A stretch of 64,000 bases of DNA from Fibrobacter succinogenes (GCA_902776765.1 CACYRP010000010.1:1-64000), one strand, 5' to 3'. Shown: positions 2,964 through 46,516, counted from the first letter of the stretch. Notes: a model not told the origin generated them from the letters alone. Translations and numbers: made by a program.

Positions 2964-3905
2964 TTACGCCTTGTTCCGGAATTCCTTGGGAGATTGCCCT
3001 GTAAATTCCTTGAACGCCTGAGCGAACTTGCTGGAATTGGTATAGCCCACACGGCCCGCAATTTCGGCAATATTCAATTTTCCATCCAGCAAAAGCTGGG
3101 TGGCTTTTTTCATGCGATACGTTTTGAGGTACGAATAAATAGAATCGCCATACGCTAGCTTGAAATACTTTTTCATTTGCGTCGGGCTCATTTCGATTTG
3201 CTTAGAGAGCTGTTCGAGCGTCAGATGGTCCTCGATGTTTTCGCGAAGAATTTCGCGCAAGAGTTCCATTTTGCCTTTGTATTGGCCTGGGATTTTGGCA
3301 GCAGTTTCGTATTTGGCTTCGGAATCGAGGCGGCTCAAGAAAAGAATCAGTTCCAGCACTTTAATCTTGAAGTACGGCAAGCGGATGTTTTTAGGGAGCC
3401 TGTACAGTTCCGAAAAGATATGGCTTACATGTTCGCTCGACGGGAGTTTTAACGGGAGCGTTAGCGGCTGGATTTTTTGAATGAGGGCCGCAAAGTCCAC
3501 GCCGACCGCCTTAAACATGTTCATGAGTTCGCTCTGGCAGCGATCCATCGAGAATATCACTGCGATACCGTGATAGCAATGCACGGGGAATTGGTATGTT
3601 CTGCTAGCCGGCATTTGATCCAAAAGCAACAAGCCGTTTTCTTCCATGGAGCGCGGCGAAGAATTCGAATCGAGCCATTCCGAACTGCCGTTATGGCAGT
3701 GCAAGACAATCAGGCTTTTCCCTTGATTTTCAAAGTTAAACGTAAATTCCTTGAGATGGAAATTGCTGTAAAAGACCTGAAGCCCTGGCAAAACATTATA
3801 CACTAGAAGATGTCCGGTTCCCGTTTTATTTTGAAGCATATAATGAGAAAAGAAATCTGTATTCTGTATTTGAATCAGATTTCTATCGGGAACAGGCCTT
3901 ATCAT
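2964..3905 (-). CDS. AraC-family regulator, PchR/YbtA-like
   Basis: This 313-residue protein has a divergent N-terminal effector domain (about 1-210) and a C-terminal AraC/XylS DNA-binding domain (about 215-313) with two helix-turn-helix units: LTLEQLSKQIEMSPTQMKKYFK and NIAEIAGRVGYTNSSKFAQAFKEFTGQSPKEFR. Its size and arrangement match the siderophore-responsive regulators PchR (pyochelin) and YbtA (yersiniabactin), which bind the ferric siderophore and activate transport and synthesis genes. It lies next to the tonB operon and close to the NRPS operon. I infer that it recognises the 20-bp-phased repeats found upstream of those operons. The N-terminal domain has no motif that identifies the ligand. 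Confidence 0.9.
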   Translation of the reverse strand: MIRPVPDRNLIQIQNTDFFSHYMLQNKTGTGHLLVYNVLPGLQVFYSNFHLKEFTFNFENQGKSLIVLHCHNGSSEWLDSNSSPRSMEENGLLLLDQMPASRTYQFPVHCYHGIAVIFSMDRCQSELMNMFKAVGVDFAALIQKIQPLTLPLKLPSSEHVSHIFSELYRLPKNIRLPYFKIKVLELILFLSRLDSEAKYETAAKIPGQYKGKMELLREILRENIEDHLTLEQLSKQIEMSPTQMKKYFKLAYGDSIYSYLKTYRMKKATQLLLDGKLNIAEIAGRVGYTNSSKFAQAFKEFTGQSPKEFRNKA

Positions 3906-4033: not shown

Positions 4034-5254
4034 CTAGAAGAAATACTTACCTTTTACCCATATTTGTGTATTTTTCTTGTAAGTTTTGAACGTTCCGCGC
4101 CTCCCTCCAAGCCAATCGGCGCCTAAAGAGAGCGTAATTTGGTCACTCAGCAGGTAATCGGCGGCAGGGCGCACATAAAAACCGACATTATCGACATCGA
4201 ACATTCCGTAAACGGAAAACTTGAGCGTATTGTTCAAGACTTCCTTGGAAATTCGCGCCGTAATCATGGATGTATTTTGCTCCGTTCCCAACACATCACG
4301 ATAATCCATAATGACTTTATGCATGTATTGCGCCATGACTGTCCAATTGTTACCCGCATACCAATCGATACCGATTAAGCCATTGAACGATTTTCTGAAC
4401 CAGTAATCCATTGAATTTTTCAACGCAATGGGCTCACCGAAATACACCGCCACTTCGCCACGAATCACAAGTTCACCTGCCGGGATCGAAACATCGCCAC
4501 CGACAACGTTCATCGGTTCGTAAACGCCCTTAATCACGGCAGATTTCGCCTCTGGATCAAAGCTTGCAATCGTAACAGGCGACTTGTTGAAAGTGCGCAG
4601 CGCCGTAAGCGAAAAATCCAGATTTTCGAGGAAGAATCGGAAACGACCGCCGACTTCGCTATTCTTGATGTGTTTTGCAGGCGTACCGCTCAAGTCCATG
4701 CGCATTCCGTCAGGCACAGGCATTTGCCACGGATTGTCATCGCTTGTCGGAATCACGAAATAATCAGGAACAGGCACAAAGACGACTTCGGCAGAAAAGC
4801 TTTCGCCCGGAAACTTGAGGTTAATCGCATTTACCGGAACGCGGATATCGTCATAATCGTTCGCCATGAATTCGGTGTAGTCCATAGGCGAAATAAGGTC
4901 GGTAATGCGGAGTCCATCGGCAACGCCCCACGTGACGATTTGGCGACCGGCCTTGACTTCGAGGTATTTGCCGGCATAGTCGAAATACGCCTCGCGGAGA
5001 AATGCTCCCGTCTGTTTTTCAATAATGCCATTGTAAGCGAGATTCACACTCGAAAAGAGCGAAGCCTCGCCGTAATCGGCGCGCATTTCAAGGCGGAGGC
5101 GAGTCCGCGAAGACATAATCTTGTGCGGGCTTTGCAACTGCAATGCGTGATAAGAATCCACAAAGCCATTCAACTGTAGCGAAAGCTCATCCTGGGCATG
5201 TGCGGACAACGCGAACACTACGAACGACAAAGCGAGACTCAATTTTTTTATCAT
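4034..5254 (-). CDS. Outer-membrane beta-barrel protein, DUF1302-like
   Basis: The 406-residue product has a signal peptide (MIKKLSLALSFVVFALSAHAQ) and then alternating beta-strand sequence ending in an aromatic residue (GKYFF), typical of outer-membrane barrels. The REAYFDYAGKYLEVKAGRQIVTWG segment resembles DUF1302-type porin-like proteins. The ATG at 5254 is chosen over an upstream start because AAGGAG sits seven bases before it. It is the last gene of the tonB operon, behind an RND transporter and a LolA-like periplasmic protein; such trios are found together in other Gram-negatives. A role as the outer-membrane partner in envelope transport is inferred. The substrate is unknown. Confidence 0.72.
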   Translation of the reverse strand: MIKKLSLALSFVVFALSAHAQDELSLQLNGFVDSYHALQLQSPHKIMSSRTRLRLEMRADYGEASLFSSVNLAYNGIIEKQTGAFLREAYFDYAGKYLEVKAGRQIVTWGVADGLRITDLISPMDYTEFMANDYDDIRVPVNAINLKFPGESFSAEVVFVPVPDYFVIPTSDDNPWQMPVPDGMRMDLSGTPAKHIKNSEVGGRFRFFLENLDFSLTALRTFNKSPVTIASFDPEAKSAVIKGVYEPMNVVGGDVSIPAGELVIRGEVAVYFGEPIALKNSMDYWFRKSFNGLIGIDWYAGNNWTVMAQYMHKVIMDYRDVLGTEQNTSMITARISKEVLNNTLKFSVYGMFDVDNVGFYVRPAADYLLSDQITLSLGADWLGGRRGTFKTYKKNTQIWVKGKYFF

Positions 5255-5274
5255 ATTTTTCTCCTTAATGGGAG

Positions 5275-5343
5275 ATGCCCGCTCAGTAGCGGGCATGACA
5301 TTCAAGACTTAACTGGATCCTTCGTCCCTACGGTCCTCAGGAT
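5275..5343. repeat. Two intergenic palindromes (REP-like) inside the operon
   Basis: ATGCCCGCT (5275-5283) pairs perfectly with AGCGGGCAT (5288-5296) across a four-base loop. A second palindrome with ATCCT/AGGAT arms follows at about 5318-5343 and ends in GATGACG, like the elements near 60112-60175. They separate the LolA-like gene from the barrel gene. They may act as mRNA-stabilising hairpins or be remnants of a dispersed element; neither has a T-tract. Confidence 0.55.
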
Positions 5344-5372
5344 GACGTAGAATGCGTCCCCCCCCCTAATAA

Positions 5373-6146
5373 CTACAGCCCTCTTTCCAGTTTGTTCACC
5401 GTAAAGATCTTGGAATCGAGCTGGATGTTGTATTTCGGATCGAGGAAAAGAAGTTCCGTCGAGTGACCTGTTTGAACATTCTTCATTTCCATCTTGCCGA
5501 CGGTCCAGAAGCCATCCACCTTCTTGATGTCCGAAGAAACCATTTGACGATGGAGCTTGCCGAGCTTGTCGTAGAATTCGACTTTCTCGACCACATCGCA
5601 ATCCTTGCGGATCCAAATGAGTTTCTTTGAGAAGATTTCGCCACTCTTTTTCGGAGTCGATTCGATAACCCAATAGTCATGACCGTTTGCGTTTTCTTCA
5701 CGAACAAGCTTATGCGTATCTTCATCGACATTGCGTTTGCCGATATCATCATACGTGAAGTCGGAACCCATGAAGTAATCGGTCTTGGAGCTTTTTCCGC
5801 TGATGCGGCGAGTCTTTTTCAAAGCGGGCAAGTAAAGCCACTTGTCGTCTTCTTTGTTGACATCGTCATAATTCACGGTCAAGAATCCCGTACCCTTCAC
5901 GTCGTTCGGGTAAAGGAAGAACATGATAGTCTTGGTATCGGCACCGACATCCATTGCATACGAAGTAATCTTGCGGACGCGGGTGTTTCCGCTCTTGTTC
6001 ACGAGCTTCATTTCCATTGATGAAGAGCGCGTATCGCCATCGGGACGGTCCTTGACCTTGATCATGATATCGCGGGCACTCGGTTGTGCCACAGACATTG
6101 TGCAGAGCGCAACAACGAGCATCGCAGCGGTTTTTGCAATTTTCAT
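5373..6146 (-). CDS. Periplasmic LolA-like outer-membrane lipoprotein-sorting family protein
   Basis: The 257-residue protein has a cleavable signal peptide ([22 protein letters not shown]). It shows the layout of the outer-membrane lipoprotein-sorting (LolA-like) family: [22 protein letters not shown], then [35 protein letters not shown], then an antiparallel strand pattern to the C-terminus. The conserved WLYLP...R+I and GSDF segments are characteristic. Family members are periplasmic, hydrophobic-cavity proteins often encoded with MMPL-type RND pumps, as here (10 bases downstream of one). A periplasmic carrier for a lipidic or hydrophobic cargo is inferred. Confidence 0.82.
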
Positions 6147-6155
6147 AAAATCCTC

Positions 6156-8531
6156 CTATTTTCCAAAGATTTTGAATTTCTTGATTAAAAGCGGTGTGAC
6201 AAACAGGTCAGCAAGCAAAGCCGAGACAAGTCCCACAAACACCACAAAGCCGAAGTTGAACATCTGCGTTGCAGCCGAGGTGGTAAAGCCCGCAAAGGTT
6301 GCCACCATGATAATCGTCGTCATCACAAGCGCAGGGCCTGCCAAGCGGAACACACGGAGAATGGCTTCGCGATAATTCCTGTTGCGATCAAATTCCACAT
6401 GGCCATGGTTGATAAAGTGAATCGTATCATCGACGGAAAGGCCGATAATCATCGGGATAAGCGTTGCCGTCATCATGTCAAGCGGGATGTTGCAAAGTCC
6501 AAGATAGCCACCCACGAAAATGCCCGGCGCGATGTTCGGAATCATGCCGATAAGCCCCGTGCGCACAGAGCCAAAGACAATCATCAAAAGCACCGCCACA
6601 ATCACAACTGAGATGAGGAACGATGTCATCTGTCCCACTTCCAAGTATTGCTGCATAGCAGTAAACTGCGGCAAGTTACCCACAGCCGTTACCTTTGCAT
6701 CCTTGAAAAGTTCACGGGCGAAGCTCTGCAAATCCTCGATTTCCTTCTGGAGTTCATTGGAGTTGTAGCTCGAAATTTCCACCATCAAGCGGAGCTTCTT
6801 GTAATCGTAATCCATCCAGTAGCTTGCTTCGGAACCACCGGCATTCTCGTACAGCAAGAGCAGCTGCGCCACCTGTTCTCCGGTTTCGGGGATGGCGTAC
6901 TTTTCTTGGCGGTTTTCATTCAAGGTGCGATCAAGATCCTTGAGAATGTCAAGAATGGAGGTAGAACGCTTCGTGAGCGGATACTTTTGCGCATGTTCCT
7001 GTAACTGCTCCAACTTCTTGAGATTTTCGACTTCTTTCGCCTTGTCGTTTGTACCAAAGTCAATGACCAAATCGTAAGAATAGAAACTCCCAATTTCGGA
7101 TTCGGCAACGTAGAGCATCTTGTTCACGTATTCCACCTTGCGGCCCATGGTGCGTTCCACATCAAAGGCGGGTTCCATTTTGGTAACGCCGTAAATGGAA
7201 ATGACGGTAATAACGGCAAACACAACAGCAATCGGCTTTCCATGAGTAAGAACAAATTCACCAACCTTGTTCAGGATAACGCCCATACGGGTATCACCGC
7301 GTTCGAGTACTTTGGCGTTTGGCTTTTTGTCCTTGCCAAAGCTCAAAAGAATCGGTGAAACCGTGAGCGCCACCAGGAGAATAAACGCAACCGCAATGGA
7401 CGAAAGGATACCCACGGAGCGGATAGGCTTGAGCATCACCGAAAGGAACGAGAGGAGTGCCACAATTGTCGTAAGGCCCGAGAAAAGCACAGACCAGCCG
7501 GTTTCTTTCATGGCATAAAGCACAGATTCCTTGCGCTTACCCGTGAGCATCATATTTTTGCGGAAGAACGAATTGATGTGAATGTTATACGCAATAGAAA
7601 CGGCGAATGCCAAGATGACAGGCACCATGATGTTGGTCGCATCCATGTAAAGCCCGAGATAGCCAACAAGTCCAAACGTCATGATGACGCCAGCAAACGT
7701 GGTAATCAACGGAGAAACGATTCCACGGAGCGAACGCGTCACTAGGAACATCACGACAATAGCACAGAGAATCGTAATGACAAAGATGCGGCTCATTTCT
7801 TCACCAATGAACTTCAATTTTTGATGACTCAGGTAGGGCATACCTGTTGCACGCGGGTGGAGCGGTGCATATTTTGCCTTGTGAATGATTTCATCGGTTT
7901 CGCGGCCAGTCTTCATGTCCGGTGCTTCTGCCTTCACGCCTTTAGCTTCGCCTTCGGCCTTCCACACTGAATCTTCTGGGAAGGGGCGGAGCTTGATATT
8001 GATGAAGGATTGCTTGCGGTCGCTCGAAATGAGCTTTTTCGCAAGTTCCGGCTTTGCGGCTAGACGCTTTTCAATTTCGGCAAGGCCCGCTGCACCTGTC
8101 GGGATTTCTTCGGGGACAATCTGCGTGATTTCCATGCCCTCATCGGTACCGAGCATGTATTCCAAATCAGTAATCGATGTCGCCTTGCCATCGGAATACG
8201 AAAGGCTATCACGCAACTCGTTCGACAGTTCGCGCAACAGTTTCAAATTATCGGGGCTGATGATGGAATGGTCACTTTCAACAAGGACGCCCACAAAATA
8301 GTCATTACCGAAAGTTTCCTTAAACTTGTCCGTTTCGATAAGCATCGGGTCGCCTTCGATAAAGTAACTATCCCATGAAGCTTCGACATAAATCTTTTTC
8401 ATGCCCACGATAGAAATTGCAAGTAGCGCAACAAAGGCGACGAGCAAAAGAGCTCGGTGGGCAATCAGAAACTTCGCGAAGTTTTCAAACTTTTCGTTTA
8501 CTTTTTCGATATTAATTCGAATCTTAGACAT
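6156..8531 (-). CDS. RND superfamily (MMPL-type) exporter
   Basis: This protein of about 791 residues has the duplicated RND architecture: one N-terminal membrane helix, a periplasmic domain, a five-helix bundle, and then the same again. Internal repeats are visible as MVPVILAFAVSIAYNIHI in the first half and LIPMIIGLSVDDTIHFINH in the second, the latter with the D-D pair usual in MMPL/HpnN-type proton-driven pumps. The ATG at 8531 is preferred to a GTG at 8537 because GAAGGAG is spaced correctly; it starts two bases after exbD stops. Members move lipids and hydrophobic molecules toward the outer membrane. Linkage to tonB, and to an acyl-ligase-containing NRPS cluster on the other strand, makes metallophore export a candidate role. 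Confidence 0.88.
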   Translation of the reverse strand: MSKIRINIEKVNEKFENFAKFLIAHRALLLVAFVALLAISIVGMKKIYVEASWDSYFIEGDPMLIETDKFKETFGNDYFVGVLVESDHSIISPDNLKLLRELSNELRDSLSYSDGKATSITDLEYMLGTDEGMEITQIVPEEIPTGAAGLAEIEKRLAAKPELAKKLISSDRKQSFINIKLRPFPEDSVWKAEGEAKGVKAEAPDMKTGRETDEIIHKAKYAPLHPRATGMPYLSHQKLKFIGEEMSRIFVITILCAIVVMFLVTRSLRGIVSPLITTFAGVIMTFGLVGYLGLYMDATNIMVPVILAFAVSIAYNIHINSFFRKNMMLTGKRKESVLYAMKETGWSVLFSGLTTIVALLSFLSVMLKPIRSVGILSSIAVAFILLVALTVSPILLSFGKDKKPNAKVLERGDTRMGVILNKVGEFVLTHGKPIAVVFAVITVISIYGVTKMEPAFDVERTMGRKVEYVNKMLYVAESEIGSFYSYDLVIDFGTNDKAKEVENLKKLEQLQEHAQKYPLTKRSTSILDILKDLDRTLNENRQEKYAIPETGEQVAQLLLLYENAGGSEASYWMDYDYKKLRLMVEISSYNSNELQKEIEDLQSFARELFKDAKVTAVGNLPQFTAMQQYLEVGQMTSFLISVVIVAVLLMIVFGSVRTGLIGMIPNIAPGIFVGGYLGLCNIPLDMMTATLIPMIIGLSVDDTIHFINHGHVEFDRNRNYREAILRVFRLAGPALVMTTIIMVATFAGFTTSAATQMFNFGFVVFVGLVSALLADLFVTPLLIKKFKIFGK

Positions 8532-8533
8532 AC

Positions 8534-8926
8534 TCACTCCTTCTTTAGTTCATTGACAAACTGTATGTTGTAGATTTTTTCCAGCTGGAGGACGTCCAAA
8601 ACTTCAGCGACTTTTTCGTAGGGCGTTTTTTTGTCGATTTTCAAGGCAACCGGAGCCTTTTTATTTTGCACCGCAGCGCTCTTGTTCTTCAAGATTTCAA
8701 CCGATGCAATTTCACCATTGATGGCGATTTCCGTTTCCGAGAGTTCAATAAAGAATCCTTCGGAAACTTCTTGCTTGACTTCGCTCGATGTCTCGGGCAA
8801 GAGAAGTTTAAGGACAGACTTGTCCTGCTTAAAGACTGATGTCACCAGGAAGAATACAAGCAACAAAAAGACACAGTCAATAAGCGGTGTCATGTCCAAG
8901 GAGATTCGATGACGTCTTTTTGCCAT
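8534..8926 (-). CDS. exbD: Biopolymer transport protein ExbD
   Basis: The 130-residue protein has a short basic N-terminus, one membrane helix (about residues 15-37) and a periplasmic domain, as in ExbD/TolR. The helix begins LDMTPLIDCVFLLLVFF with the conserved proton-pathway aspartate at residue 17. The start at 8926 is chosen because AAAAGG precedes it and it lies one base beyond the exbB stop. With ExbB and TonB it would use the proton-motive force to energise the two TonB-dependent receptors in this locus. Confidence 0.93.
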   Translation of the reverse strand: MAKRRHRISLDMTPLIDCVFLLLVFFLVTSVFKQDKSVLKLLLPETSSEVKQEVSEGFFIELSETEIAINGEIASVEILKNKSAAVQNKKAPVALKIDKKTPYEKVAEVLDVLQLEKIYNIQFVNELKKE

Positions 8927-8927
8927 T

Positions 8928-9506
8928 TTAAACCTTTTCACTTCTGCGAGAGTCGCCAAAATGACGAGCATCGCGTTCTTGCAAAGTTTTGCCCAAGTGC
9001 AAAAGCACCTGGTTTTCGACTTCGTCCTGTTCTTGCTCCATGCGAGCGTTCAGGTAGTTGAATGCAAGTACGTGCGGGATAGCGACCACAAGTCCAAGGA
9101 CCGTTGTCACGAGGGCAAACTTAATGCCCGTCGCAAAAGCGGATGGATCATCAAGACCTGAAGCCGCTATCACCGTAAATGCGTTGAAAATCCCCACGAC
9201 AGTACCTAAAAGACCAAGCATCGGAGAAATAGATGCAATGTTTTCGACGGTCGTGAGGCCCTTCGTGAGAGGAGAAAAAGCAAGGCCAATTTCGGTGCGG
9301 ATACTTTCCGTAATGATGTGATGATCTGTATTGCAAGTTACCACGCGGTGAATTACCTTATCTGTCAAACGCGGTTGCACAGTCTTATTAAAGACAATTA
9401 ACGAAATCACCTTCCAAATGATAATCGCATAACCAATAAAGTTCATGGCAACTAGGATATAGCCAATAAAACCGCCCTGCTTTACAAATTCGAGAATGAA
9501 ATTCAT
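8928..9506 (-). CDS. exbB: MotA/TolQ/ExbB proton channel protein
   Basis: The 192-residue protein has three membrane helices (about 12-36, 90-115 and 130-150) and the family signature IASISPMLGLLGTVVGIFNAF, followed by GIKFALVTTVLGLVVAIP. It is the channel subunit of the TonB energising complex. Its start overlaps the tonB stop (TAATG), implying coupled translation, and GGGAG serves as the ribosome binding site. Confidence 0.94.
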   Translation of the reverse strand: MNFILEFVKQGGFIGYILVAMNFIGYAIIIWKVISLIVFNKTVQPRLTDKVIHRVVTCNTDHHIITESIRTEIGLAFSPLTKGLTTVENIASISPMLGLLGTVVGIFNAFTVIAASGLDDPSAFATGIKFALVTTVLGLVVAIPHVLAFNYLNARMEQEQDEVENQVLLHLGKTLQERDARHFGDSRRSEKV

Positions 9507-10216
9507 TACGATCTCCCTGCATTAAGTTTATACTGGATAGGAATTTCAATCCTCCAGCGTTCTTTTTCTAAAATTTTTGGAATGGGATGAAACTTTTCCA
9601 TTTTTGCAACCGCATCCATCGCGCTATTATCCAAAGATGAATAGCGGCTCGATTCCGAGACTTCAACCTGTTCTATCTTGCCATCGGCAAGGATGGTGAA
9701 CCTCACACGTACTATGCCCTCCTGCTTCAAGCGTTTCGCCGTGGCAGGATAATCCTTGATCTGTTCCAACTGTTTTTTGAGCGAGCGCAAGTATGTGCGG
9801 GTCACCATTTTTACAGAATCAGCCGAAGGCCTGGGCGGTTCCTTTACTACAGGTGGCGCGGGCGGAGCCGGTGGAGCTTCGACTATGGGCTCTGCAGCCG
9901 CAACAGGAGCTGTTTCTACAATTGGTTCTGGCTCCGGTTCCGGGACTTTTTCTTCAATCGGCTTTTCAACAACCTTCGGGATTATTTTTGCGCGAACCAC
10001 CTTTTTTACGACAGGAGGCGCTTCGGGCGGAGGCGGAGGCGCAATATACACACGTTCGGCATGAATCACGGGAGAATCCGGACGATTGACCGGAATTTCT
10101 TTTTTTTGGAAATATGGATTCAAAAAGACCGCAACATGGATAAAAATTGCAACAACAAGCCCAAAATAAAAGGCCCTGTTGAACGAAAGTGCTGAATAAA
10201 TCCGTTTTTGCGTCAT
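9506..10216 (-). CDS. tonB: Energy transducer TonB
   Basis: The 236-residue protein has an N-terminal membrane anchor (about 14-32), a Pro/Glu/Val-rich periplasmic spacer (PPPPEAPPVV, PEPEPEPIVE, APPAPPAPPVV; about 55-130) and a C-terminal TonB domain (about 145-236). That domain carries YPATAKRLKQEGIVRVRFTI and VEVSESSRYSSLDNSAMDAV, the usual receptor-contacting fold. It heads the minus-strand operon tonB-exbB-exbD-RND-LolA-like-barrel. An upstream 20-bp-phased operator (10279-10309) suggests it is induced together with siderophore genes. Confidence 0.94.
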   Translation of the reverse strand: MTQKRIYSALSFNRAFYFGLVVAIFIHVAVFLNPYFQKKEIPVNRPDSPVIHAERVYIAPPPPPEAPPVVKKVVRAKIIPKVVEKPIEEKVPEPEPEPIVETAPVAAAEPIVEAPPAPPAPPVVKEPPRPSADSVKMVTRTYLRSLKKQLEQIKDYPATAKRLKQEGIVRVRFTILADGKIEQVEVSESSRYSSLDNSAMDAVAKMEKFHPIPKILEKERWRIEIPIQYKLNAGRS

Positions 10217-10278: not shown

Positions 10279-10309
10279 TCTAAAAAGTCTTTAATCGGCC
10301 CAATTAGAC
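10279..10309. promoter_or_regulatory. Operator A upstream of tonB
   Basis: TCTAAAAAGTC (10279-10289) and CCCAATTAGAC (10299-10309) fit the half-site YCYAAWWAGWC and are exactly 20 bp apart. The surrounding 47 bases (10272-10318) align without gaps to 40438-40484 upstream of receptor 1: the left 14 bases are identical and the right 19 have two differences. It lies 63 bases before the tonB start. It is probably an AraC-type regulator site. Confidence 0.75.
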
Positions 10310-10361
10310 GAAGGTAACATTTTTTAAATAACTGGCAATTTTACACAAAATTCGGCCACAA

Positions 10362-10392: not shown

Positions 10393-10478
10393 TTTTTTTT
10401 GAGAAAAATCCACAAAAAAACATTCATCTGTTCTAAATTTTGTTAGCCAAATCTATCTTTTTCAGGAATTTCACAGCC

Positions 10479-36803: not shown

Positions 36804-38039
36804 CTAGTCATCAAGCGGAACGATATAATAAGCAGTTCCTGTCGTTACATCCATTTCCTTCGTGACCTTTCCAGATGCAATGTCATAGCGGTACACGGCA
36901 CCACCCTTCTTATCGGCATGGCCCAAAAGAACGCTCTTGCCATCGGCATCCAAATGAATGGACGGAGCAAACCACGGAATTGTCGGAGAAAGGCCTTCAA
37001 TCTTTTCAATAGTCTTTTTCTTCAAATCAATGACAACAAATTCCCATTCGTAATTGTTATAGTTGCTCGGATCTTCGAAGTTACCGAAGAAGCCAAGGAA
37101 CTTGCCCTTACCCAAATAAGCACCACCACTCATCAAATAATTGTTATTGCTTTTTTTGCCAGCGTAAGCGGCATCATGCAAATGGAAAACCCAATCCTTA
37201 TCAAATTCAGTTTTGCCCTTCTTAAGACGAACAAAGCCTTCTTTATAACCATCCATCCAACCCATTGCGGCATTGGAATAGTAGTAGATATCGCCATCTT
37301 CATCAACGAAAGACATGGTATTGTTCATATCGTCAATAACGCCAACGGCAGCTGTAAGGTTTTCCGTAATAACCTTTTCAACCTTATCCGTCTTGACATC
37401 AATAACAGCAACAGACCCCTGAGCACCGGTAATCATGCTATTAAGATCCACCATCTGTGAAAGGGCAACGAACATTTTGCCATCGCGAATCACCGCAGAA
37501 TTCGGGACCGTAGTCACAGCGCCATTCTTTTCGTCAATATATTTGGAAAGGTCAATTGTAGCCTTTTCCTTAAGGGTAATCGGATCAAGTGCTGTAATGG
37601 CATCACCCAAAGTCTGTTCAACATACATTTTGTCCTTATCGACAAATTTCATCATGAGAGCATGTGTGCCCTTGAATTTAGCCGTAGCAGCCGGCTTATC
37701 GGACATATTGTTATCCTTGTCCAGTTCATAGCGTACAAGCGTGCTATTCATATCTTCGACATAGAGCGCATAGAGCGAGCCATTAAAATATTGGAAACTG
37801 CCCTTATTGGGGATTTCAACAAAGTCATCCACCACTTTTTTCTGATCCGCAGAAATTGACGCTGTTCCAATGAACTGGGAATTTTCCACCATGAAAGAAA
37901 ATCCGTACTTCTTTCCGCTTTCATTGGAATCGTCGGATGCATTGGAGTTCGAATCGCTACAAGCGGCAAGTCCAAAAACGAGACTGGAAACAGCGAGACC
38001 TTTAAAAAGGCTCGGAATGATTTTGTATGTCTTTTTCAT
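36804..38039 (-). CDS. Surface-type lipoprotein, beta-propeller-like (lipoprotein 1)
   Basis: The 411-residue protein has a lipoprotein signal ending in the lipobox LAAC (GLAVSSLVFGLAAC), then a Ser/Asn/Asp-rich linker. The body is made of repeated blade-like units (for example YFNGSLYALYVED, VIRDGKMFVALSQM and VIDVKTDKVEKVI) suggesting a beta-propeller. It is clearly paralogous to the lipoprotein at 45317-46516: both have TALDPITLKEKATIDLSKY-like and IDVK.DKV-like segments. It follows a TonB-dependent receptor gene by 77 bases. The pairing recalls XusB, the siderophore-binding lipoprotein partner of the receptor XusA in Bacteroides. Capture of the ferric metallophore at the cell surface is inferred. 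Confidence 0.8.
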   Translation of the reverse strand: MKKTYKIIPSLFKGLAVSSLVFGLAACSDSNSNASDDSNESGKKYGFSFMVENSQFIGTASISADQKKVVDDFVEIPNKGSFQYFNGSLYALYVEDMNSTLVRYELDKDNNMSDKPAATAKFKGTHALMMKFVDKDKMYVEQTLGDAITALDPITLKEKATIDLSKYIDEKNGAVTTVPNSAVIRDGKMFVALSQMVDLNSMITGAQGSVAVIDVKTDKVEKVITENLTAAVGVIDDMNNTMSFVDEDGDIYYYSNAAMGWMDGYKEGFVRLKKGKTEFDKDWVFHLHDAAYAGKKSNNNYLMSGGAYLGKGKFLGFFGNFEDPSNYNNYEWEFVVIDLKKKTIEKIEGLSPTIPWFAPSIHLDADGKSVLLGHADKKGGAVYRYDIASGKVTKEMDVTTGTAYYIVPLDD

Positions 38040-38116
38040 ATTATTCCTTTTTGTTGTTTAAATTTTCCGTCACAATGTCATCCTAAAGTCCGAAGAGCAA
38101 TAGGAGCCATCATTTT

Positions 38117-40357
38117 TCAAATCGAAAATTTCACCTTCGTCGCAAAAGCCCTGCCCGGTTTTGATTCACCGTACTTATCGTAAACACGTTCATCCGTTAA
38201 ATTATGAACTTCAAAACTCCATGAAAGTTTATTCGCAAAAATTGAATATTCCACGCCCAAATCTTGCGTAAACGAACTTGGAATCGTACGATCCTGCTTT
38301 TTAGAAACCTTCCAGGTGTAGTAATAATCATCCGTATAATTTGCAAACCAGTAAAGTTTTAAAAAATCTTCGTTGAAAAAAAGATCACCACTATGAAATT
38401 CTGCACCAAAATTCATATAGAATGTCGGCATATTCGGCACAACCAAATCCTTTGCAATGCCATAAGAAAAATCAGCTTCGCGGCTCTTGGCATCCTGTTT
38501 TGTCAGGTTAAACGAAAGCGCTATATATTCATTCACATCAACGCCCAAGTCTATTTCAAAGCCACTCGTTTTTGTACCAACGCTGTTATAATACGGGCGC
38601 GGCACAGCAACATAGCTGTTCCAATAAATCCGGTCATCCATCAAAAGGTAGAACCAGTTGAATTCAAGATGAAGCTTTAACAAAAGCGGAATCTTATCTA
38701 AATCAAGTTCTGCACCCGCCGTAAAGTTATCGGAATGTTCCGGTTTTAAATTTGGAGAGCAAGCCACATAAATTCCGTCGCCAAAAATTTCTTCACGAGT
38801 CGGGAATCTCAAGCTGTGCTGATACCCAGCCTTGACCGCCAACGCTTCCATCAACTTCACCCGCAAATTTTCGCTAAAGCCAAAATCTTTCTGCGAATAC
38901 TCATCATTAATCAATTGCTGCACTCTATTTTCGCCGTCATTATCGGCTTCGATATTGTAAAAGTATCCCTTGATTCCAGCCACATTCTGGATTCTTTTAT
39001 TCCAAAAGTTATTTTCAAGAGATAACCCCGTTATAAGCGAATAAGCGTGTCCTGGAAAACCAGCATTATTCAGCTTTTTATTTTTCACAGACAATTTATC
39101 TTTCGAATCCTGAGATTCATAACGGAACAATCCGCTCCACGTCAGGTTATGATTTTCAGAAAATTCATAATTAACATTCCAAGGGACAAGCAATGAATAA
39201 TTTTTATATTCATAAAACGAAGGAGAGCCGAGAGTAATTTCGCCTAGTGAAACTTCACTTTCTTTATAGTCCGACTTATCCCAACCATAATAATACACAT
39301 GAGTCGTGTCAACAACACTTTCTTCACCATAATTAAAGCCTATAGAAATAGCAGCGGAAAGTCCATCCACAAACAAGTTCGTTTTTTCCAATGATAATGA
39401 AACTCCGTAGCCGAAGGCATCAGCAGAAGCATGTTCTACACGATGCGCTGTCGATTGGATTTCTTTATCACTTGCACCAAAGCTTGCTCCAATGCTGATT
39501 TTATCAAAGTAGAAGTTATTCAAGTTGACAAATGGGGAAATATTATAACTGTAATAACGGCCATAATCTCGCGTCACCACCGTATCCATATACGGAGTGG
39601 TAAATTCGTAATCATTATCGGAATAGTTATAATATGCAGAGAGCCCCGTTTCAACAGCACGTCTTTTCAGCGAGTCCGTCACCCACACGTATTTTGCATC
39701 AAGCGATGCCTTATGTGTATTGAAACTTCCGAACGAATAAGAACCTGTAACGGAACTTTCGAACAAGTTCTTCGTCACAACATTGATAACGCCGCCCATG
39801 CCATCTGTTGCAAAACGTTCCGGCACATAACTCTTGTAAACTTCAATGCGATCAATTTTATCGATAGGAATATCGTTAATTGAAAGGCTACCATTTCCAT
39901 TATCCACAGGAACGCCATCCACAAGGACTTTGACGTTCTTGCCTTCCATGCCGCGAATATTGATTTTACTTTCGCCGCCGAGACCGCCCGATTGACGGAC
40001 TTTCACGCCCGATGAACGGTTTGTCGCTTCGGCAATTGTCGCACTGGAACCTTGCAATTCCTTTGTATCCAAGACCTTGACGGATTCAGCCTTTATTTTT
40101 GCATCAATGGGAGCCGTTTCCGCTTCAGTTTCATCTTCAACAGATAGCCCTTCAAGAACCGTAACATCCGAAGGCTTTGCGGAACGTTCAGAATTCGGAG
40201 ATGTACTTACTGCAGATTCATTAGATGGCGCAGCACTAGCCGCATCTGTAATAGTCGCAGGCTCATCGAAAAATGCGTCATCATAGCTCGTGACTTCTTC
40301 GTTCTGTGCAAATACGCAAATCGAAGAAAGAGCAATAGAAGCAAAAACTTTTTTCAT
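38117..40357 (-). CDS. TonB-dependent outer-membrane receptor 1
   Basis: From the ATG at 40357 the receptor has about 746 residues. It has a signal peptide (MKKVFASIALSSICVFAQ), an acidic, Ser/Ala-rich N-terminal stretch, a plug domain (VKVLDTKELQGSSATIAEA, then KINIRGMEGKNVKVLVDGVPV and GGVINVVTK) and a beta-barrel ending in TKVKFSI. The upstream TTG at 40396 is less likely as start. It is paralogous to the receptor at 42847-45099. It heads an operon with lipoprotein 1 and sits below operator B. The substrate is probably the locus's own ferric metallophore, or a related xenosiderophore. Confidence 0.93.
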   Translation of the reverse strand: MKKVFASIALSSICVFAQNEEVTSYDDAFFDEPATITDAASAAPSNESAVSTSPNSERSAKPSDVTVLEGLSVEDETEAETAPIDAKIKAESVKVLDTKELQGSSATIAEATNRSSGVKVRQSGGLGGESKINIRGMEGKNVKVLVDGVPVDNGNGSLSINDIPIDKIDRIEVYKSYVPERFATDGMGGVINVVTKNLFESSVTGSYSFGSFNTHKASLDAKYVWVTDSLKRRAVETGLSAYYNYSDNDYEFTTPYMDTVVTRDYGRYYSYNISPFVNLNNFYFDKISIGASFGASDKEIQSTAHRVEHASADAFGYGVSLSLEKTNLFVDGLSAAISIGFNYGEESVVDTTHVYYYGWDKSDYKESEVSLGEITLGSPSFYEYKNYSLLVPWNVNYEFSENHNLTWSGLFRYESQDSKDKLSVKNKKLNNAGFPGHAYSLITGLSLENNFWNKRIQNVAGIKGYFYNIEADNDGENRVQQLINDEYSQKDFGFSENLRVKLMEALAVKAGYQHSLRFPTREEIFGDGIYVACSPNLKPEHSDNFTAGAELDLDKIPLLLKLHLEFNWFYLLMDDRIYWNSYVAVPRPYYNSVGTKTSGFEIDLGVDVNEYIALSFNLTKQDAKSREADFSYGIAKDLVVPNMPTFYMNFGAEFHSGDLFFNEDFLKLYWFANYTDDYYYTWKVSKKQDRTIPSSFTQDLGVEYSIFANKLSWSFEVHNLTDERVYDKYGESKPGRAFATKVKFSI

Positions 40358-40444
40358 CTTTGTAATCTCATCCACCCATTTACTTTTAATTTTCAATCAC
40401 AAATTGTCGAGTAAAAATAAATTCAAAACACCACCATTTTCTAC

Positions 40445-40475
40445 TCTAAAATGTTTGACTACAATCCAATTAGAC
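40445..40475. promoter_or_regulatory. Operator B upstream of receptor 1
   Basis: TCTAAAATGTT (40445-40455) and TCCAATTAGAC (40465-40475) are 20 bp apart. They lie in a 47-base block that aligns without gaps to the tonB operator at 10272-10318. The site is about 90 bases before the receptor start, between it and the feoB terminator. Confidence 0.75.
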
Positions 40476-40491
40476 GAGGATAACTTTTTAC

Positions 40492-40557
40492 AAAAAAAAG
40501 TATGGCGCACCGTTCGGCACGCCATACCCTCTTCTATTGTAGTCTGGGTTTTAGAAG
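40492..40557 (-). terminator. Terminator module, copy 2 (3' of feoB)
   Basis: GTATGGCG (40500-40507) pairs with CGCCATAC (40520-40527), with an A-run at 40492-40499 that is the T-tract on the minus strand. A second hairpin, CTTCTA/TAGAAG (40531-40536 and 40552-40557), carries the same AGTCTGGG loop as copy 1. One stem pair differs from copy 1 in a compensatory way (G-C here, A-T there). Confidence 0.8.
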
Positions 40558-40562
40558 AAATC

Positions 40563-42617
40563 CTAAAGCACCCACAGAGCAACGTGGTAAACTATAAACG
40601 CCAAGCCGAGTGAAATAGCAAAGTAGTAGCCAGCAATGGCAGCGGTCCATTTCACGGAATGCGTTTCGCGATATGTTGTACCCATCGTAAGCACGCAAGG
40701 CACGTTAAACATGGATGCAAAAATAAACGCAAGCGCTTCGGGGATCGTCACCACAGCACGCATCATTTCACCAAGATTTGCACCAGCCGCGTTACGCGAC
40801 ACAAGTGAGAACGCATCGTTTGTACTCGAGAACACGACACTCATCACGCCAAGCGAAGCTTCCTTGCTAAAGACGCCACCCAGGTAAGAGATAAACAGTT
40901 GCCAACGCATACCAAAAATTTGCGTGAACGGTTCAATCACGCCGCCAATGCGATACAAAAGGCTATGCGTCACCAAACCATCGCTCGAATAAGATACCGC
41001 CCAGAAAACAAACGAAACAAACCAAATAACAATAATTGCTTTTTTGAATACACTCCAAACATTGCGACCAACAGTCTTAATCAAGTTTTTCCAATGCGGT
41101 TTATGGTACGGCGGAAGTTCCATAATCATCCCGACTCGTTCATTAACAGGGACAAGCTTGTTGCCAAAAAGCTTTGCCGAAAGCCAGAACGACGCAAAAA
41201 TCAATGCCACATAGATTAGCCCAAACAATGGCGCGGCAGAGCCAAAGAACACCGAGGCCAAGAACAGCACCACGGAAACTTTAGCACCGCAAGGAATCGA
41301 CCACAAAAGAGTCATCGCAAACAAGCGCTGTCCACGAGTATCCAGGACTCGCGTACCACACACAGCGCCACCCGTACAAGCAAGGCCCGAAACAAGCGGC
41401 ATAAACGCCTTGCCATGCAAGCCAAGTCGCGAAAGCCAAGAATCAAACACGAACGACGATCTTGCCAAATACCCCGTATCTTCCATCAATCCAAAAGTCA
41501 CGAGAATCGAGAATACAAAAGCCATCATTGCAATTGTTACTGCAAGTCCATCAACAACAACGCCATTGATGAACGATGCAACAGAAGGCCATAAGCCAAG
41601 CGATGCGCAAAATTCATTCACATGCGGAACGGCAGCTCCCTGAGCAGCAAAACATCCCATAATTACCGGCATTGCAATCATCATGCTTACGGCAAGCGTA
41701 ATCACCAGAATGAAGAACGCCACAAGCTTGCCCCAAATGCGGTGCGTCGCTATTCTATCAAATTTCGAAAGCGGTTTGACATTTTCATTTTCCAAAGATA
41801 TTCCGCGAAGCACTTCTGAGATAAAGTGGTATTTCGCCTCGCCCGTCACAAGGCCACCTTCTTCATCCAAAATTTTCTTGATTTTCGTCCAGCGTTCGGG
41901 AACAACGGACAAAACAACTTCGGAGGTAACTAGCGAATCATTTTCCAACAGTTTTGAAGCAATCCAAAAGCTATTGCGTTTACCAAAATCTATTCCATCG
42001 AGCAGTCGCCCTATTTTCTCAATCAATGAAACTCCGCGACCTTCTGCGGCACCATTTGCGGCACTCTCGGTAACAGCAGTACTTTCCTTTAGCACAGCAC
42101 AGATTTTTTCCGAAGAAATCATTGCCGTCTTTTTCATAGCCCGTTCAAGAGTTTCAAAAAAGCGCGGATAGCATCCCGTTTCAGCAGCAACAAAGCCAAG
42201 CACAGGAATATTCAAAAGACGCTCTAGCTTTTCGACATCTATTTTTTTGCCCTTTTGCTCAGCAACATCCATCATGTTGAGCACCAGCATCACAGGGATT
42301 TTGATTCCCGCAAAATCCGCAAGCATGTAGAGGCTGCGTTCCAATTGCGAAGCATCTACGATAATGCATACAAGGTCAGGATTACCATGTTCAATAAAAT
42401 CGCGCGTCACAATTTCTTCGGCTGAGTTTGCCGTAAGCCCATAACTGCCAGGCAAATCAATAACGCGATAAACATCTTCACCCTGCGAGAAAAATCCCTC
42501 CGCTTTTTCCACCGTTTTTCCTGGCCAGTTGCCCACATGTTGGCGAGAGCCTGTCAATGCGTTAAAAAGTGTAGATTTCCCTGAATTCGGTTGTCCCAAG
42601 AGAGCGATTGTTCTCAT
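40563..42617 (-). CDS. feoB: Ferrous iron transporter FeoB
   Basis: The 684-residue protein has an N-terminal GTPase with G1 GQPNSGKST (8-16), G3 DLPG (54-57) and G4 NMMD (114-117), then a helical linker and a polytopic membrane domain with the two FeoB gate segments (for example LACTGGAVCGTRVLDTRGQR and SYLGGVFSKEASLGVMSVVF). It imports Fe2+ across the inner membrane. It is translationally coupled to feoA and lies in the same run of genes as lipoprotein 2 and receptor 2. This suggests that iron delivered by those proteins is reduced in the periplasm before uptake. Confidence 0.96.
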   Translation of the reverse strand: MRTIALLGQPNSGKSTLFNALTGSRQHVGNWPGKTVEKAEGFFSQGEDVYRVIDLPGSYGLTANSAEEIVTRDFIEHGNPDLVCIIVDASQLERSLYMLADFAGIKIPVMLVLNMMDVAEQKGKKIDVEKLERLLNIPVLGFVAAETGCYPRFFETLERAMKKTAMISSEKICAVLKESTAVTESAANGAAEGRGVSLIEKIGRLLDGIDFGKRNSFWIASKLLENDSLVTSEVVLSVVPERWTKIKKILDEEGGLVTGEAKYHFISEVLRGISLENENVKPLSKFDRIATHRIWGKLVAFFILVITLAVSMMIAMPVIMGCFAAQGAAVPHVNEFCASLGLWPSVASFINGVVVDGLAVTIAMMAFVFSILVTFGLMEDTGYLARSSFVFDSWLSRLGLHGKAFMPLVSGLACTGGAVCGTRVLDTRGQRLFAMTLLWSIPCGAKVSVVLFLASVFFGSAAPLFGLIYVALIFASFWLSAKLFGNKLVPVNERVGMIMELPPYHKPHWKNLIKTVGRNVWSVFKKAIIVIWFVSFVFWAVSYSSDGLVTHSLLYRIGGVIEPFTQIFGMRWQLFISYLGGVFSKEASLGVMSVVFSSTNDAFSLVSRNAAGANLGEMMRAVVTIPEALAFIFASMFNVPCVLTMGTTYRETHSVKWTAAIAGYYFAISLGLAFIVYHVALWVL

Positions 42618-42846: not shown

Positions 42847-45099
42847 CTATCTAAAACTGTAGCGAATCTTTGTTGCAAAACTTCTACCCGGCTTGCTTTC
42901 GCCAAACTTGTCATACGAGCGAGCATCAGCCAAGTTATCAACTTCAAAGCTCCAGCCCAATTTATTATCCCACAAGGAATATTCGACGCCAATATCTTGC
43001 GTGAACGAGGATTTAATTTTACGGCTCTGGCGGGAGCTAATTTTCCAGCCATAGAAATATTCATCCGTATAATTTGCAGACCACCAGACTTTCAAAAAAT
43101 CTTCCTTGCTAAACAAGTCGCCAATATGGAACTCTGCAAGATAGTTCATAAAGAATCGTGGAATATTCGGAACGATTGCATCCTTGGGAATGCCCTGTTT
43201 TGCATTATATTTTACATTGCGTAAATCTTGGAAAGTCCAGTTCGTTCCTAATAAAATCCACTCATTTACATCCAACTTTACATCACCTTCATAGCCCCAG
43301 CTACGGATCGGATTCATGTTAAAGTAAGGCGTTGACATCTGTGCCGAGTTCATGTAATGGATTCGATTCTTGTAGTACGAATAAAATACATCACCGTCAA
43401 AGCGGAGTCTTGTTACAAGCGGCAATTCCTGCAAATCCACAGAAATTCCAAAATTGAAATTATCCGTTTCTTCAGGCTTGAGTTTTATCGCAGCACTCAC
43501 GCGAAGGCCGTCACCAAACAGTTCTTCGGGAGACGGCAGACGCACCGCATGTTGATACGAAGCCTTCACAGAAAGCGGTTTTGCAATTTTGAACATCAAA
43601 TTTTCATCATAACTGAAATCCGTGTAGTCATTCGATTCTACCGCAGGTTCAATCAGAAGGCTCGTCGGCATATTCGAAATTTTGGCATTCAAGTAGTGGA
43701 ATTTGAAGCCTGCGAGATTTTGGATTCGAGAATTCCAGAAACGATTTTCAAGCGAAATGCCAGTAGTCACAGAAAACATTTCACCTGGAAGCCCTGCCGT
43801 ATTGAAACCCATCTTTTCCGAACCAAGATCATCTTCAGGATTTTCCTTATGATATCTGAGAAGCGTATTCAAATAAACAAACTGATCTTTTACATATTGA
43901 TAATCAAGATTCAATAAATTATTAAAATCGTAAATTTCAACAGTACGAAGTTTCGGGAGCCCCATTGATGTAAGCTCTCCCACATTTTTCTTTGCGACAT
44001 CGCAGCTAAACCAATTGCGGCAATGAACGCGGCTTGTATCGATTATTTTGTTTTCTGCAAAACCAAATGAAAAATAGTCGCCAAAATTCAAATTCTTGGC
44101 AATAAAGTTTTTCTTGTCAAGACCAAATGAAACACCGAAATTGTAGCCTTCGGATGTTGTTTCCTTAATACGATATTCGATGCCCTGAATTTCCTTGTCA
44201 AACGCACCGAAACTAGCACCAAGCGAAAATTTATCAAACCAGGCATTCATCAAATTTGCGAAAGCCTGCACATTGTAGGATGTATAATGGTCGTGATCGC
44301 GAACGACACTCGTATCCTTGCCCGTAGAACTTTTCATATACGGCGAAGTGAATTCATAATCGTTATCGGAATGGTTAAAATATCCCGATACACCAATTTC
44401 AAGGCTTGTCGCACCCGCAATGCTGTCTATCAAATGGCTTGCACTGACCGACGCTTTGTGTGTATTAAAGCTCGAAAAACTGTAAGATGCGTCCACAGAA
44501 TTTGCCGGGCGTTTCTTTGTCACAACGTTAATGGCACCGCCCGCGCCGTCTGTCGCAAAACGTGCAGGAATATAGCCTTTATAAACCTCGATATCCGCAA
44601 TTTGGTCAATGGGAATATCGTCAAGCCCCAAATTTCCCTGCGTTTCGACAGGAACGCCATTGACAAGCACCTTGATGTTCTTGCCTTCCATGCCGCGAAT
44701 GTTTATTTTACCTTCGCTGCCCATTCCGCCAGACTTGCGAACTTTCACGCCAGATGCGGAATTAATCGCCTTGGAAATGCTCTTGCTCGTATTCTGCAAT
44801 TCGGCGGCATCAATCGTAGAAACCGTTTCGACCTGTTTCGCAATTGCAGCCTGCTCAGCTTCCGATTCCGTCTCGACCGAAAGCAAATCCAATCGCGTGA
44901 CATCTTCCGAATTTGCAGAGGAGTTCGTAGCTGCGGCACCATTCGCCGAGACATTCGCAGCATCCGTGCTAATCGCCGGACTTTCATTTTCATCCGCAAA
45001 ATCATCGAATTGCGTCACTTCATCATCTTGCGCAAAAACAGCCACAGTCAAAACTGCGGCACAAGCAAGCACAAATCTCATTCTTTTATAGATATTCAT
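42847..45099 (-). CDS. TonB-dependent outer-membrane receptor 2
   Basis: The receptor of about 750 residues has a signal peptide (MRFVLACAAVLTVAVFAQ within its first 25 residues), a linker similar to that of receptor 1, a plug (KINIRGMEGKNIKVLVNGVPV, GGAINVVTKK) and a barrel ending in TKIRYSFR. The reading frame is open further upstream to 45243, but that part (LTPTASAASLGYAGLQAARRN-like) lies in an unusual GC-rich intergenic block and has no ribosome binding site, so the ATG at 45099 is used. It precedes feoA by 11 bases and follows lipoprotein 2. Confidence 0.92.
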   Translation of the reverse strand: MNIYKRMRFVLACAAVLTVAVFAQDDEVTQFDDFADENESPAISTDAANVSANGAAATNSSANSEDVTRLDLLSVETESEAEQAAIAKQVETVSTIDAAELQNTSKSISKAINSASGVKVRKSGGMGSEGKINIRGMEGKNIKVLVNGVPVETQGNLGLDDIPIDQIADIEVYKGYIPARFATDGAGGAINVVTKKRPANSVDASYSFSSFNTHKASVSASHLIDSIAGATSLEIGVSGYFNHSDNDYEFTSPYMKSSTGKDTSVVRDHDHYTSYNVQAFANLMNAWFDKFSLGASFGAFDKEIQGIEYRIKETTSEGYNFGVSFGLDKKNFIAKNLNFGDYFSFGFAENKIIDTSRVHCRNWFSCDVAKKNVGELTSMGLPKLRTVEIYDFNNLLNLDYQYVKDQFVYLNTLLRYHKENPEDDLGSEKMGFNTAGLPGEMFSVTTGISLENRFWNSRIQNLAGFKFHYLNAKISNMPTSLLIEPAVESNDYTDFSYDENLMFKIAKPLSVKASYQHAVRLPSPEELFGDGLRVSAAIKLKPEETDNFNFGISVDLQELPLVTRLRFDGDVFYSYYKNRIHYMNSAQMSTPYFNMNPIRSWGYEGDVKLDVNEWILLGTNWTFQDLRNVKYNAKQGIPKDAIVPNIPRFFMNYLAEFHIGDLFSKEDFLKVWWSANYTDEYFYGWKISSRQSRKIKSSFTQDIGVEYSLWDNKLGWSFEVDNLADARSYDKFGESKPGRSFATKIRYSFR

Positions 45100-45119
45100 T
45101 ATCAAAAAATTTTCTAAAG

Positions 45120-45310
45120 TGAAAAAAGCGTCGGCCAAGGTATTTTCTTCGCAGTAGCGCGCAAAACGAGTGTTGCGACGGGCTGCTTGCAGACCGGCAT
45201 AACCGAGTGAAGCCGCTGACGCCGTAGGCGTCAAAAGCATCAAAGGCGAATGCTGCGGTTCCGAGCTGGGGCCCCGCCCGCATGATTTTTTCGCTTAGCC
45301 GTTAGGCCTC
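45120..45310. other. GC-rich intergenic block between lipoprotein 2 and receptor 2
   Basis: About 190 bases of distinctly GC-richer DNA lie inside an otherwise AT-rich operon gap. It contains a hairpin, TGACGCC-GTA-GGCGTCA, near 45217-45233, and GGGGCCCCGCCC near 45269-45280. It keeps an open frame into receptor 2 but no plausible start. It may be a dispersed element or a structured leader for receptor 2. No function is assigned. Confidence 0.45.
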
Positions 45311-45316
45311 ATAATC

Positions 45317-46516
45317 TTACTTCAGCGGAACCATCCACATCGGGATTTGTTCGGCCTTGGCAATCTTCTTGGCTTTATCCGTTTTCGGATCATAGCGGAA
45401 GTAGGCGTTGCCATCTTTTTCCGTAGAAACCGCAAAGATCACCTTGCCATCTTCCTCGACATACTTACCGTAACTAGCCCAGCTCGAAGTATAATCAATC
45501 GGCAAAGCCTTCATCTTTTTCTTTGCAAGGTCAATCTGCACCGGCTTGCAAGTGGGATTGTGGTAACTTTCCGCATCAAGCCAACCCTTTTCCAGATCCT
45601 TCATCACGTTCAAGAAAGAGTAAACGTAACCATCGCTCGGATGTGTTGACGGCGCGAGATATTTGAAAACACCTTTCTTGGTGATACCGTCAATGGCAAC
45701 ATCCTTGCTCACAAACCAAGCGTAATCCTTGTCAAACTTGGTTTCGCCCACCTTGATACGGAGGAAACCATCAACCTGGCCGGGAGCGTAGCCCCAAGAA
45801 GCATTACTGTAGCAATAAATATAACCATCAAGTACCGTAAACGACTGATTTTCCGAGTCGTCTAGAGAACCCACTGCAGCGACGCGGTCATCCGTAGCAA
45901 CGGCAATGACTTCGTCCTTCTTAACATCGATAATGGCAACTTCAGCTTGATTACCTGTGCGGTACTCATCTTGGTTCTGGATGAGACCTACATAAAGGCG
46001 ATCATCGACAATCACGCCCGTACCAGGGGTTACCACATAAGCATTCTTACTCTTGTACTTGGAAAGATCAATAGCACCTGTTATCTTCATTGTTTTCGGG
46101 TTGATGATGAGTAGGGAATCCATCAAGCCACCGACATATGCTTTTTCTTTGTTTACAAAGTAGATATGGTCCGACCATTTTCCTGGAAGGGAAAGTACAG
46201 CCTCTTTTTTGCCAAGCTTATTATTTTCGGCCAAGCTGTAACGGGAAATAGAGCCGACATCCAAATCAGCGATAAACAAGGCATTATCATAATACACAAC
46301 GCCTGCACGCGTGCCAACTTCAACAAAGTCCTTGCCCAAATCATCCGTGTGGTCTAAAGACATCGTGCCGATAAACATCGTTTCGCCCGTCGAAATGGAT
46401 GTTGCAAATTCGCGTTTGTAATCATCATCGCCGTTTGAAGAAGTCGAAGAATCGTTACCGCAAGCAGCCAAAACACTTGCCGCAACAAAAGAGAGTGCTA
46501 AAAGTTTTTTATTCAT
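45317..46516 (-). CDS. Surface-type lipoprotein, beta-propeller-like (lipoprotein 2)
   Basis: The 399-residue protein has a lipoprotein signal ending at LAAC (MNKKLLALSFVAASVLAAC), a Ser/Asn/Asp-rich linker and repeated blade-like units (VVYYDNALFIADLDVG, LLIINPKTMKITGAIDLSKY, VAIIDVKKDEVIAV). It is a paralog of lipoprotein 1 (36804-38039). It is the first gene of a minus-strand operon with receptor 2 and feoAB, and its promoter region holds the operator triplet D. A substrate-capturing partner of receptor 2, as XusB is for XusA, is the preferred inference. Confidence 0.8.
   Translation of the reverse strand: MNKKLLALSFVAASVLAACGNDSSTSSNGDDDYKREFATSISTGETMFIGTMSLDHTDDLGKDFVEVGTRAGVVYYDNALFIADLDVGSISRYSLAENNKLGKKEAVLSLPGKWSDHIYFVNKEKAYVGGLMDSLLIINPKTMKITGAIDLSKYKSKNAYVVTPGTGVIVDDRLYVGLIQNQDEYRTGNQAEVAIIDVKKDEVIAVATDDRVAAVGSLDDSENQSFTVLDGYIYCYSNASWGYAPGQVDGFLRIKVGETKFDKDYAWFVSKDVAIDGITKKGVFKYLAPSTHPSDGYVYSFLNVMKDLEKGWLDAESYHNPTCKPVQIDLAKKKMKALPIDYTSSWASYGKYVEEDGKVIFAVSTEKDGNAYFRYDPKTDKAKKIAKAEQIPMWMVPLK

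Follow-up and report, generated by a model that had tools for sequence, protein, structure and literature searches.

Siderophores are recycled in M. tuberculosis through import by IrtAB and secretion by MmpL4/5 (PMC9042941), so that an MMPL-type pump and an ABC importer serve one iron cycle. In Bacteroides, the Xus system combines XusA and XusB with the reductase XusC, and the study that describes it leaves the ferrous importer unnamed (PMC13142918). Operons with the order TetR-ABC-ABC-MMPL-LolA-like-hypothetical rise 13- to 136-fold at low iron in P. gingivalis (PG1175-PG1181) and 40- to 223-fold in P. intermedia (PMC10434189). The AmeABCD system of Castellaniella defragrans, for which outward export is proposed, consists of an HAE3 RND pump, a DUF1302 protein, a LolA-superfamily (DUF1329) protein and a fourth, periplasmic protein, AmeC; it confers monoterpene tolerance and has no TonB or iron genes (PMC6394551). 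The locus analysed here shares parts with each of these systems.

The stretch analysed, here called the window, comprises bases 1-64000 of contig 10 of the 3.9-Mb draft genome of a Fibrobacter-like gut bacterium. As an earlier note on this DNA had described, six minus-strand genes at 4034-10216 form a tight operon in the order tonB-exbB-exbD-MMPL(RND)-LolA_like-DUF1302 barrel (Table 1), with one-base overlaps (as between exbB and tonB) or short spacings throughout, except for 118 bases 5' of the barrel gene; the note's word 'fused' is to be understood as one operon, not a single protein. All three domains of a TonB-ExbB-ExbD complex score above their cut-offs in overlapping or near-abutting genes, and the TonB of the operon is the top-scoring of the 14 TonB_C matches within its own genome. 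Reading of the sequence puts the start of exbD at ATG 8926 and that of the barrel gene at ATG 5254, preceded by AAGGAG; for the pump, ATG 8531 with GGAG 5' of it is the better predicted start than GTG 8537.

Table 1 Features of the operon and of the flanking iron-uptake island, with positions in the window
Feature	Position	Strand	Evidence and remarks
AraC-type regulator	2964..3905	-	Pfam HTH_18; downstream of operon, same strand, in type A loci
DUF1302 outer-membrane barrel	4034..5254	-	DUF1302 PF06980, E 2.5e-13, 50.3 bits (cut-off 23.2)
Gap	5255..5372	.	Dispersed genomic repeat and small hairpin without T-run
LolA_like periplasmic protein	5373..6146	-	PF17131, E 4.6e-65, 219.2 bits (cut-off 30)
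MMPL/HAE3-like RND pump	6156..8531	-	MMPL PF03176, E 5.6e-42, 144.3 bits (cut-off 20.5)
exbD	8534..8926	-	ExbD PF02472, E 2.4e-24, 86.3 bits (cut-off 25.4)
exbB (short, TolQ/ExbB type)	8928..9506	-	MotA_ExbB PF01618, E 5.1e-29, 101 bits (cut-off 22.9)
tonB	9506..10216	-	N-terminal membrane anchor, proline-rich linker, TonB_C; PF03544, E 1.2e-19, 70.9 bits (cut-off 24.6)
Upstream element GTTACCNNNGTCTAATTGG	10300..10318	-	19 bases, 5' of tonB; kept in 16 type A sequences
XusB-like (DUF4374-like) lipoprotein	36804..38039	-	Profile match to XusB 9hqe, 2.6e-15
TonB-dependent receptor 1 (XusA-like)	38117..40396	-	Plug domain; top PDB match 9gbc_A, E 6.6e-51; upstream element shared with tonB
feoB	40563..42617	-	TIGR00437, 383.3 bits (cut-off 315.65)
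TonB-dependent receptor 2	42847..45243	-	Plug and barrel domains; MxcH-like
Second XusB-like lipoprotein	45317..46516	-	34% identity to the 36804-38039 lipoprotein; XusB profile match
Exporter-fold ABC pair ABC3/ABC4, YbtPQ/IrtAB-like	46695..50205	+	PDB profile matches (ABC3); Bacteroidales counterparts adjoin trio

The pump, carrier and barrel genes (hereafter the trio) were compared with solved structures and curated families. The pump profile (A1) matches MmpL4 (9syt, 2.3e-23) and HpnN (6wu0, 3.4e-22), and the pump reaches 195 bits against HAE3 (TIGR00921) and 112.9 bits against the MMPL family RND subfamily (TIGR00833), both below the curated cut-offs (351.9 and 874.7, respectively); judged by sequence, it is a distant relative only of the MmpL siderophore exporters. 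Close solved relatives of the LolA_like protein are 9tp6 (1.3e-94), 3bk5 and 4z48. The barrel has no match to the TonB plug domain (Pfam Plug), and its AlphaFold2 model (pLDDT 88.5), which Occ/OpdK, MOMP and AlgE barrels match at Z about 22, suggests a fold like that of diffusion or export barrels. The domain set of the Ame cassette is present beside the MMPL pump, with PF07044 (DUF1329) at 60.8 bits and PF06980 and PF17131 likewise above cut-off; because the window has no extra gene between tonB and the barrel that could be AmeC, we describe the trio as working like the Ame cassette and do not file it as a member.

The 118 bases at 5372-5255, the sole real gap in the operon, hold the repeat GTCATCCTGAG...CGAAGGATC, which has 39 copies in the genome and none in a reversed control. 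Since the relative L060 has almost none of this gap and its barrel and LolA_like genes nearly abut, an insertion seems a better description of the 118 bases than an operon boundary; a terminator at the hairpin was rejected on the same ground and because there is neither a T-run nor a minus-strand terminator-like match at this place.

The earlier note had placed tonB under an 'operator A', probably the element GTTACCNNNGTCTAATTGG at 10318-10300, and had drawn on co-regulation of the trio with TonB; this co-regulation and the link to iron are supported here. At 40484-40466, 5' of the gene for receptor 1, the element recurs with a single mismatch. In relatives, 30 of 45 sites of a core motif, looser than the 19-base element, fall in the 400 bp that precede one of the island genes (tonB, TBDT1, X399, FeoB, LolA or MMPLp), with about 10 sites in all expected from a simple Markov model for part of the loci only. 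On the other side of the operon, the AraC-type gene adjoins the barrel gene in those type A loci whose contig extends that far.

That receptor gene belongs to an iron-uptake island in which, as in Xus, a XusB-type beta-propeller lipoprotein adjoins a TonB-dependent receptor. The partner chain of the best structural match of receptor 1 (9gbc_B) is a DUF4374 protein, and a model of the 36804-38039 lipoprotein superposes on ferrichrome-bound B. fragilis XusB (9hqk) with a TM score of 0.73-0.80. Thus, the receptors of the window resemble XusA and its X411 and X399 lipoproteins resemble XusB, whereas descriptions of Xus include the reductase XusC but not an RND trio, and the island has FeoB and an ABC pair alongside; no XusC-like PepSY-type reductase was found among the proteins scanned, a subset of the window's ORFs. 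The PDB matches of ABC3 include YbtP-type 6p6i (E 2.5e-105), IrtA (from 1.6e-88) and MsbA (about 1e-72). YbtP and IrtA are its closest single-subunit transporters, with two-domain P-glycoprotein-type chains scoring higher, and on this closeness among single-subunit transporters we regard ABC3/ABC4 as a siderophore-importer-like pair, with import as the predicted direction.

To place the operon within the genus, 80 genomes were searched for the pump (counted at 66% identity or more, fragments included), tonB and two NRPS markers, a thiazolinyl-imide-reductase-like gene and an FAAL-like gene. The same 41 genomes hold tonB and the pump together and the other 39 have neither, in a sample where genomes are related by shared ancestry, several are incomplete and counts are not independent events. 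Two gene orders occur: tonB-exbBD-MMPL-LolA-barrel in 17 genomes and a sister genus, and MMPL-LolA-barrel-tonB-exbB-exbD in 24 genomes, mostly with FeoB divergent from MMPL. That tonB-exbBD may stand first or last speaks in favour of a genuine link of the two halves of the operon. The window's order is found without NRPS in nine genomes, most of which have genes for a receptor, a lipoprotein, FeoB and ABC transporters facing the tonB side. In 4 of the 24 MMPL-first genomes and at a second locus of G068, an ABC pair, an AraC gene and a XusB-like gene lie between MMPL and LolA, and a receptor gene follows 3' of exbD wherever the contig reaches. Relatives that were fully read extend the island with a ZIP metal transporter (PF02535), a second MMPL gene, a flavodoxin, ABC4-ABC3, AraC, a XusB-like gene and a receptor, and around both orders FeoB, XusAB-like pairs and ABC3/ABC4 recur. 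Paralogous trios of types C and D have different surroundings, with isoprenoid-type genes (ispE, squalene-synthase-like) and other NRPS genes adjoining type D; the trio machinery as such is therefore not specific to iron.

Beyond the genus, a scan of named genomes recovered the pump from Bacteroidales (50-54% identity), Delongbacteria (about 50%), Desulfobulbus and Cloacimonadota (about 42%) and Treponema (33-36%). At most of these loci the pump gene is followed by, or lies close to, genes for a LolA_like protein and a barrel, often together with an ABC pair, genes for a receptor and a XusB-like protein, a ZIP transporter gene and in some cases FeoB; the Bacteroidales ABC pair beside the trio consists of gene-for-gene counterparts of ABC3 and ABC4 (43-61% identity). 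Because tonB-exbBD was absent from the trio operon at every locus read beyond this family, the joining of the trio with TonB looks family-specific. The PG1175-PG1181-type operons share with these loci an MMPL pump, an outer membrane lipoprotein-sorting protein and an ABC pair, a match by gene composition and not by sequence, and where they encode a hypothetical protein next, the related loci that we read encode the barrel; they differ in having TetR instead of AraC, no tonB-exbBD, and the ABC pair inside the operon. A literature search of limited scope found no functional study of the trio with siderophores.

As its genes accompany siderophore-import genes in many other bacteria, the trio looks like a component of iron acquisition in general. 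We propose, with moderate confidence, that the operon links two modules belonging to a single iron-acquisition island and that the trio is an iron-starvation efflux line, the outward pump of a siderophore-uptake island, a direction and a substrate that we infer. TonB-ExbB-ExbD would power the XusA-like receptors, which together with the XusB-like lipoproteins would bring in ferric siderophores, own or foreign, and the YbtPQ/IrtAB-like ABC pair and FeoB would move the iron (or the complex) inwards. The MMPL pump would pick up the siderophore once it is emptied, or some other amphiphilic carrier of iron, the LolA_like protein would carry this cargo over the periplasm and the barrel would release it outside, with the three proteins presumably in direct contact; the line may start at the inner membrane or in the periplasm. 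A more tentative extension, possible rather than probable, is that the trio sends iron-stripped siderophores, stolen ones included, back out in many Gram-negative anaerobes (Fibrobacter, Bacteroidales and Treponema), in Fibrobacter from the same operon as TonB-ExbBD. By analogy, such recycling may be the counterpart of the mycobacterial IrtAB-MmpL4/5 cycle, which likewise pairs an MMPL-type pump with an IrtAB-like importer, although the mycobacterial system handles its own mycobactins, works with MmpS and Rv0455c across a mycomembrane and is without a LolA_like protein or DUF1302 barrel (PMC9042941). An operon of like composition is present in P. gingivalis, which is described as making no use of siderophores (PMC13227078), so the cargo may instead be a porphyrin, a lipid or a different chelator.

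In an alternative interpretation, low iron switches the trio on for envelope remodelling, in which it would transport a lipid of the outer membrane or some other hydrophobic substance, its link to siderophore genes being regulatory only. Hopanoid transport by HAE3 relatives such as HpnN, the carriage of lipids by LolA-fold proteins, the monoterpene tolerance that comes with the Ame cassette and its DUF1302 and LolA-superfamily proteins (PMC6394551), and the position of the type D paralogues beside ispE and a squalene-synthase-like gene all fit such a cargo. Physical linkage of the trio to FeoB, XusAB-like pairs and ABC pairs of the siderophore-importer-like kind recurs across several phyla, however, and is more specific than shared regulation would require; we consider this interpretation doubtful.

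The earlier note had instead suggested that the trio may export the probably acylated product of the adjacent NRPS cluster, which as its main and dedicated role we now consider unlikely. The premise that this product may be acylated is supported by a fatty acyl-AMP ligase-like (FAAL-like) gene at 28604-30220, the MmpL4/5 siderophore exporters are among the top PDB profile matches of the pump, and all eight of the 80 genomes with the NRPS markers lie within the 41 and have the sextet divergently beside the NRPS. However, most genomes with the trio lack the NRPS (33 of the 41 within the genus), and a condensation domain is absent from 24 of the 27 trio genomes searched outside the genus, in phyla where the trio is common without the cluster. 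Such a distribution with unrelated neighbours was what the note had expected if its proposal were wrong, and the second part did not hold, the neighbours being siderophore-receptor, FeoB and importer-like ABC genes. As to INDEPENDENCE from the NRPS, 18 of the 41 trio genomes lack any condensation domain, near-complete ones such as G003, G040, G044 and G047 among them (G047 shares the window's gene order), and IucA/IucC was found in none of the 80 genomes; for these two routes we rejected the idea that NRPS-less trio genomes make another siderophore. Nor do NRPS-associated pumps form a special clade: mapping the NRPS label onto the pump tree takes 7 changes against a shuffled mean of 7.5 (195 of 500 shuffles as low), NRPS genomes hold both pump alleles of the locus (about 67% and about 93% identity to the window's pump), and near-identical pumps occur with and without NRPS (G055 and G070). 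The NRPS cluster also has an ABC pair of its own at 10440-13951. In the eight NRPS genomes the efflux line may carry the NRPS product as a secondary cargo, without having arisen for it.

Expulsion, in place of a siderophore, of something toxic that iron extraction leaves behind, for example a porphyrin from haem, is improbable to a slightly greater degree. It would suit the like-composed operon of P. gingivalis, where PG1178-1180 rise in an hmuS deletion (PMC13227078), but the receptors and lipoproteins of the window resemble the xenosiderophore proteins XusA and XusB, and no haem-uptake gene was recognised beside the operon among the scanned subset of ORFs. Direct driving of the trio by TonB-ExbBD, for instance through the barrel or the LolA_like protein, would explain why both modules stay in one operon despite the change of order, but is very unlikely given that the barrel lacks a plug domain and resembles ordinary porin-like channels, that trio operons outside the family are without tonB, and that one or more Plug matches in each of the 80 genomes indicate other receptors to power, which rules out trio genomes where TonB could serve the trio for want of a receptor.

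Read as the efflux line of a siderophore-uptake island, the trio bears on the fate of a stolen siderophore after iron removal in the xenosiderophore systems of gut anaerobes: the island offers the RND-LolA_like-barrel line as a candidate route for the emptied siderophore and, beside it, places FeoB as a candidate for the iron. The same reading would give a candidate function to the iron-induced operons of oral Bacteroidota, which have so far been named only automatically.

The NRPS cluster beside the tonB-exbB-exbD-pump-LolA_like-barrel operon is restricted to 8 of the 80 genomes of the genus and encodes a PPTase and a FAAL-like ligase, three methyltransferase regions, a thiazolinyl imide reductase that matches TIGR01761 above the cut-off, and its own YbtPQ-like ABC pair. 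The dispersed repeat, which falls in the gap between the LolA_like and barrel genes, is present in 39 copies in the genome and in a single copy in the window.

Features of the window and their coordinates
Feature	Positions	Remarks
Dispersed repeat	5316-5346	GTCATCCTGAG...CGAAGGATC
Pump gene	6156-8531	
NRPS cluster	10440-36580	TubC-type docking domains present
Two XusA/XusB-like receptor and lipoprotein pairs	36804-46516	with feoB
feoA-like short reading frame	42618-42846	read off the sequence
Type III restriction-modification gene pair	54868-59851	ResIII and EcoP15I-type methylase

Paralogous trios of the genus occur in other settings. Type C, an MMPLp-LolA-barrel trio without tonB (loci L076, L077 and L109), lies close to a long FeoB. 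Type D is a LolA-MMPL-barrel trio (loci L086, L087 and L111), with ispE-like genes close by in L087 and L111; roughly half the genomes carrying this type have a condensation-domain gene of ~1000 aa nearby.

In one relative, G070, the pump gene (L075:5234-7614) reads in two overlapping frames, owing to a frameshift or to a mistake in the assembly. Two pump alleles occupy the same locus in relatives, with ~67% versus ~93% identity to the window's pump, while tonB and exbBD remain 80-98% identical; this contrast suggests that the pump gene was swapped by gene replacement within the operon.
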